DNA of 37,275 nt from the NCBI GenBank assembly GCA_009927815.1, contig RFMI01000068.1:1-37275 (forward strand), read 5' to 3'. Both the position numbers and the translations under genes were made by a program. This document shows positions 11,310 through 11,489 of the stretch, piece after piece. Under the pieces are notes generated by a model. The model searched no databases and was not told where the DNA came from. It saw nothing but the letters and a program-made list of their open reading frames with translations. The DNA is from Betaproteobacteria bacterium (lineage in GTDB: Bacteria > Pseudomonadota > Gammaproteobacteria > Burkholderiales > UBA3065). The stretch's first letter is position 1. The number at the start of each line of letters is the position of its first letter.

Positions 11310-11489
11310 ACTCGGAGGACACTCGCTGGTAAGGCTTATCGGCGAGACTGATACGGCAATCCGAAAATCCAATCGCTGCGGAGCGCTTGCAAACCTTCTC
11401 CCAGTAGCTCGATTGAACTAATTTGGAACCGTTGCTTGATTCCTCCTCCTTCAGCAACTTTGCGCGGCCCCTCGGGGCCGCTTTTTTTT
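11310..11489 (+). ncRNA. Candidate structured 3'UTR / sRNA between siaA stop and terminator
   Basis: Hairpin CTCGCTGGTAA-GGC-TTATCGGCGAG (11322-11346), small hairpin CGCT-GCGG-AGCG (11374-11385), hairpin GTTGCT...AGCAAC (11431-11458) displaying TCCTCCTCCTT (anti-SD-like), then terminator. No clear promoter seen. Confidence 0.4.
11464..11489 (+). terminator. Rho-independent terminator
   Basis: GCGGCCCC-TC-GGGGCCGC perfect 8-bp stem followed by T8. Confidence 0.93.

Follow-up and report, generated by a model that had tools for sequence, protein, structure and literature searches.

The stretch between siaA and cfa in a betaproteobacterial genome carries a C/T-rich hairpin before an intrinsic terminator, which raises the question of whether a small RNA (sRNA) is encoded there, how far it extends, and whether it is cut from the siaA mRNA or made from a gene of its own. 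The original prediction placed a structured sRNA with an anti-Shine-Dalgarno (aSD) loop at 11310-11489 and proposed its release from the siaBCA transcript. The window (the whole 37,275-nt stretch of DNA that was analysed) belongs to a 1.76-Mb draft genome (94% complete; G000) of a genus within a large betaproteobacterial order. As set out below, the sRNA is right in kind, its earlier extent and origin are wrong, and the noteworthy part is a proposed connection of its family with the regulator PhaR.

Extent and fold of the element

All motif positions of the original prediction were exact when re-checked against the window sequence. The main features of the locus are the following:

Local genes: a siaB-like gene (PF19788), siaC (PF09345) and siaA (CBS plus SpoIIE phosphatase, PF07228)
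Convergent to siaA: the cyclopropane synthase gene cfa (PF02353)
11396-11401, plus strand: weak candidate -35, TTCTCC, chosen by spacing only (17 nt before the -10)
11419-11424, plus strand: candidate -10 box, TAATTT, which aligns with TACTTT in the A copy of a related genome (G001) and with TAnnnT in the B copies
11430-11489, plus strand: predicted gene for sibling copy A of the sRNA, with two hairpins in about 60 nt, based on homologues in five of five genus genomes and on the fold; its 5' end was placed from the -10-like box and conservation
11431-11458, plus strand: hairpin 1, a stem (GTTGCT/AGCAAC, 11431-11436 with 11453-11458) with a one-base 5' bulge and an 11-nt loop, based on the fold and on compensatory stem changes
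11440-11451, plus strand: aSD loop TTCCTCCTCCTT, invariant together with its closing TGA/TCA pairs in seven copies plus L087 (the Sterolibacterium element described below)
11464-11489, plus strand: hairpin 2, the intrinsic terminator GCGGCCC-CTCG-GGGCCGC (stem 11464-11481) followed by T8 (11482-11489), based on a terminator scan and the fold, and present in all copies

The loop of hairpin 1 includes TCCTCCTCCTT at 11441-11451, and the CCTCCTT contained in TTCCTCCTCCTT is also part of the 3' tail of 16S rRNA. Folding confirmed stability beyond chance for the core at 11428-11489 (62 nt; -25.4 kcal/mol, z = -5.5, with none of 200 shuffles as good), while the aSD hairpin on its own had z = -4.3 and the whole 186-nt stretch z = -3.8; nearly all meaningful fold signal is confined to 11428-11489. 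Two structures that had been counted as parts of the element, the hairpin CTCGCTGGTAA-GGC-TTATCGGCGAG at 11322-11346 and the small stem CGCT-GCGG-AGCG at 11374-11385, do exist in the sequence but fall outside the conserved part and have neither conservation nor counterparts in relatives. The extent of 11310-11489 was not borne out, the real element being about 60 nt on the plus strand (11430-11489).

Sibling copies and the origin of the window copy

A second copy, 84% identical and covering positions 128-182 of the query only, was found in the same genome (G000:C126:2114-2168), and all four other genus genomes examined have a copy, with two copies each in G000 and G001 and one clear copy in each of the remaining three. 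Sibling B is present in five of five genus genomes upstream of yggX (L032:2107-2167, L034:6947-7005, L035:1191-1249, L036:6924-6983 on the minus strand, and L037:6448-6507), in the constant order trypsin-like protease gene, sRNA, yggX and ppk1, and is better conserved than sibling A. The A type was detected, among the five genomes, in the window and as one G001 copy at an unrelated place, and the homology between these two begins at the -10-like box.

All seven copies from the five genomes, and a Sterolibacterium MAG, have the same 17-nt UGAUUCCUCCUCCUUCA, whereas the stem below the loop varies with compensation (GUUG/CAAC, GUCG/CGAC, GUCA/UGAC, and GGUGG/CCACC). Both sides have changed in two of eight pairs, and 96% of cells are paired compared with 27-52% when slid, which is modest evidence taken alone because the set holds seven sequences only. 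A conserved loop on a stem that is only a holder is expected of an RNA acting through its loop. Fold z-scores ranged from -3.5 to -5.5 across all sibling copies. Conservation of the CCUCC loop and of stem pairing in relatives, which had been named as a check, is present with compensatory changes, and the copies in relatives together with the stem covariation argue for an sRNA of the CCUCC type (aSD loop plus terminator), as originally suggested.

Outside the genus, a scan of 84,980 species for TGATTCCTCCTCCTTCAGNNAC returned six stretches, five in genus records and one in the Sterolibacterium MAG, whose element has a fully paired 9-bp stem that differs in sequence (GGUGGCUGA/UCAGCCACC). This element (L087:4640-4720, minus strand) ends some 20 nt upstream of a start codon and could be a leader or an sRNA. 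DNA similarity searches with the full 186-nt region found only terminator-like matches outside the genus. CM R1, a covariance model built from the genus copies, detected no strong member beyond the genus in 399 genomes of the order and 274 of the class; its weak matches were mostly terminators, together with two Rfam-confirmed RF02278 elements in other families of the order.

A -10-like TAnnnT lies just upstream of every copy, and TTGC occurs at the -35 position, with 16-17 nt spacing, in all copies but that of the window, for which a promoter scan found no consensus sigma-70 site or -35. The promoter, with its poor -35, is judged to be the least certain part of the window copy.

Copy A is on the same strand as siaA and 120 nt downstream of it, the terminator scan found no further terminator in the interval, and a good -35 is lacking. 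All this would suit an sRNA derived from the siaA 3'UTR, in which transcription of siaBCA continues into the terminator and RNase E then frees a short RNA. However, the siblings lie elsewhere than behind siaA, the similarity of the A copies starts at the -10-like box, and no such sRNA is present downstream of the siaA orthologues (81-82% identical) of G002 and G001; G001 retains the siaA-cfa order, with the two stop codons just about a dozen bp apart. In addition, GGAGGA immediately downstream of the siaA stop codon (11314-11319) is base-paired to the CCUCC loop in the MFE fold of a long transcript, so that a read-through RNA would hide the CCUCC motif. As relatives lack an sRNA downstream of siaA, an origin from the siaA 3'UTR is quite unlikely, and the proposed release from the siaBCA transcript is contradicted by the siblings, by the G001 and G002 siaA loci and by the start of the A homology. 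Through the same GGAGGA, siaA read-through could also act as a decoy or mask the motif. Downstream of siaA in G002 (L178) lies another hairpin at the 3' end, CCACCCC...GGGGTGG, and this comparison suggests that only some hairpin, not that of copy A, is kept behind siaA. The simplest reading of these loci is that the sRNA-bearing segment is an addition in the window's lineage.

It might also be argued that siaA has just a plain terminator, insulating it from the convergent cfa, preceded by a chance C/T-rich hairpin. The convergent arrangement and the good terminator would agree with this, but the loop is identical in all copies, including those located elsewhere than siaA, and the stem covaries, which makes coincidence extremely improbable; the sibling copies already refute this reading. 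That copy A is a degenerate or recent duplicate of B, with the structure kept and little or no transcription, seems rather unlikely. It is found at the same place in no relative, and with its weak -35 and no PhaR box (see below) it could be decaying or transcribed by read-through; against this, its stem still pairs with different bases (GUUG/CAAC), its loop and T8 are perfect, and an A-like copy with its own -35/-10 is also present in G001. The segment at 11430-11489 is probably a short, independently transcribed, trans-acting aSD sRNA and a sibling of B, belonging to a class wired to carbon storage via PhaR. The copies, their conservation, their structure and the promoter boxes are observed directly, and from them we infer transcription.

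Relationship to known anti-Shine-Dalgarno sRNAs

The Rfam scan advised in the original prediction found no family at the gathering threshold over the whole window, and the best sub-threshold match was RF00519. By architecture, the closest family is RF02278 ("Betaproteobacteria toxic small RNA"), which comprises the Burkholderia double-hairpin sRNAs ncS03, ncS05, ncS27, and ncS62 (PMC5688073). These are 57-67 nt long after processing and place CU-rich unpaired stretches over ribosome-binding sites (RBSs), and over-expression of ncS27 slows growth while its silencing speeds growth (PMC5688073). RF02278 and the window element have in common a length of about 60 nt, two hairpins of which the second is a terminator, and a CCUCC aSD loop in hairpin 1; the RF02278 and genus families both occur as dispersed copies (three to five in Burkholderia, two each in G000 and G001) and belong to the same bacterial order. 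On the other hand, stem, bulge and loop size differ, and the 5' single-stranded UGUCUCCUCC of RF02278 is absent from the genus copies, which start directly with the stem (UGUCGA or CGUUGC).

The RF02278 model (cut-off 50 bits) found no element above cut-off in any of the five genus genomes and did not list the window element even at E = 10, while 47 of 120 relatives, none of them of the genus, have RF02278 above cut-off. When CM R1 was run on 30 RF02278 loci (91 kb), 29 of the 30 elements outranked all other sequence, in register at CCUCC. The window RNA is therefore regarded as a divergent counterpart of RF02278; descent from a shared ancestor is plausible though unproven, because a CCUCC loop with a terminator behind it can arise independently.

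Other aSD families are more distant. The Neisseria sibling sRNAs NmsRa/NmsRb (NgncR_162/163) likewise use CU-rich loops over RBSs of metabolic genes, but are arranged in tandem with three stem-loops, whereas the window family has dispersed copies and two hairpins; the NmsR model gave the window element 18.1 bits against a cut-off of 52. Cuckoo RNAs/alpha-r14 (NfeR1) and CcsR carry, as the genus family does, an ultra-conserved aSD loop on variable stems, although CCUCCUCCC is present in every one of the three alpha-r14 hairpins (PMC10746234) and the window element has one aSD hairpin, scoring 13.8 bits with the ar14 model (cut-off 58.8). The best sub-threshold match, RF00519 (suhB/MmgR, alphaproteobacterial alpha-r8), reached 22.3 bits against a cut-off of 41 (E = 0.019 in a 401-base search), with 18-23 bits for the other copies. 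Both RNAs have a CCUCC stretch followed by a U-tailed terminator, the stretch lying in the linker of the RF00519 family model but in the loop of the window RNA.

PhaR-like boxes, candidate targets and the parallel with MmgR

A palindrome near -35, GTTGCGnYGCnnCAA, is common to all five B promoters. Boxes were called against the PhaR consensus published for Cupriavidus, YTKNTGCRNYGCANMAR (PMC12849132), with at most two mismatches allowed, and a PhaR-like box was found at -35 to -38 in all five B promoters (1-2 mismatches), with a second, often weaker site near -122 to -127 in four of the five. Both phaR and phasins are present in all five genomes, and, against 74,609 background positions, a PWM built solely from the phaR-phaP intergenic sites of these genomes puts the B -35 sites in the top 3e-4 or better. 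Neither the consensus nor the PWM revealed a PhaR box in the promoter of window copy A, and the G001 A copy has a 3-mismatch box remnant at -34, suggesting that A has probably left PhaR control or is decaying.

A PhaR-like box upstream is common to sibling B and RF02278. The 150 nt upstream of the sRNA were examined in two sets of RF02278 loci (L092-L121 and L183-L222). In a set of 30 loci, boxes were detected at 18, versus 18 of 477 flanks, compared with a mean of 0.96 (maximum 5 in 200 runs) for dinucleotide shuffles and 0.39 for a scrambled motif. Another 39 copies, retrieved separately, were divided according to whether the genome has phaR (PF07879); boxes occurred in 14 of 27 copies from genomes with phaR and in none of 12 from genomes without it. 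For both sets together the counts were 31/49 versus 1/20 (Fisher p = 5e-6), or 26/34 versus 1/13 by genome; the genomes are phylogenetically related, so that p-values overstate independence and represent strong support rather than exact values. Box density was 2-6 per kb in the 150 nt upstream of RF02278, where boxes cluster at -37/-38 and -80 to -99, and roughly 0.4 per kb elsewhere. In genomes where the two genes are on the same closed contig, phaR and the sRNA are far apart, indicating that the boxes are not phaR's own sites. One sub-threshold RF02278-like match (G042:C44:66111-66185, minus strand) lies about 400 nt from phaR and is possibly a PhaR-linked copy.

The assignment to PhaR is by sequence similarity only, and related motifs may exist, so another transcription factor with a TGCRNYGCA palindrome might own the boxes; this is improbable, however, given that the boxes track phaR across genomes (31/49 versus 1/20) and match the phaR-phaP intergenic boxes of the respective genomes. 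The co-occurrence of boxes and phaR is observed directly, whereas PhaR binding, targets and mechanism are inferred.

With regard to targets, strong pairing of the loop with a phasin leader (180-aa protein) is predicted in five of five genus genomes, at -13.9 to -19.3 kcal/mol, against a background of 211 ORF starts (5th percentile -12.4, 1st percentile -15.9). This leader (L134, L135, L136, L138, and L139) carries GGGAGGAG or GGGGGA opposite the sRNA loop. The main phaP leader pairs modestly (-8.4 to -11.2), and phaR has no complementarity to the loop. A target scan for AGGAGGAG-ATG found few sites, with hpf recurrent in four of five genus genomes; this ribosome hibernation factor gene (PF02482; L158, L164, L165, and L166) has an unusually strong AGGAGGAG Shine-Dalgarno and is a possible target. 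The phasin and hpf matches are leads and weak evidence, as a CCUCC loop pairs with any strong Shine-Dalgarno.

In the proposed mechanism, hairpin 1 would display UUCCUCCUCCUU as a mimic of the 16S anti-SD, pair with the purine-rich Shine-Dalgarno sequences in a group of mRNAs and block ribosome binding, while hairpin 2 would end transcription and supply a U-tail for Hfq. Copies A and B (upstream of yggX) would form a two-member family, the local, sequence-divergent counterpart of RF02278, made or withheld according to polyhydroxybutyrate (PHB) status through the PhaR sites in B and in many RF02278 promoters. Likely targets would be phasin and other carbon-metabolism mRNAs, and copy A, with no PhaR box, probably responds to another signal.

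Across the Burkholderiales, RF02278 RNAs are both widespread and abundant, and their control is described as unknown in the literature searched. The promoter analysis offers a concrete regulator (PhaR) and a physiological signal (PHB status) for them, and yields a prediction checkable in strains such as Cupriavidus necator. No statement of PhaR control of RF02278 RNAs was found in the open-access literature searched, priority being uncertain. If the link is true, a regulatory circuit persists while the sRNA sequence is replaced or diverges past family models, as in this genus. The nearest parallel is found in Sinorhizobium meliloti, where PhaR/AniA binds the mmgR promoter and represses mmgR, and MmgR lowers the phasins PhaP1 and PhaP2 (PMC12542648, PMC8401924). 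MmgR is PhaR-controlled according to the literature, and the same is predicted for sibling B. On balance, we lean slightly towards the view that RF02278 and the genus family are betaproteobacterial equivalents of MmgR, that is, a PhaR-controlled brake coupling PHB granule status to the translation of phasin and carbon-uptake mRNAs, in which case the circuit would span Alpha- and Betaproteobacteria and the window copy would have escaped PhaR control.
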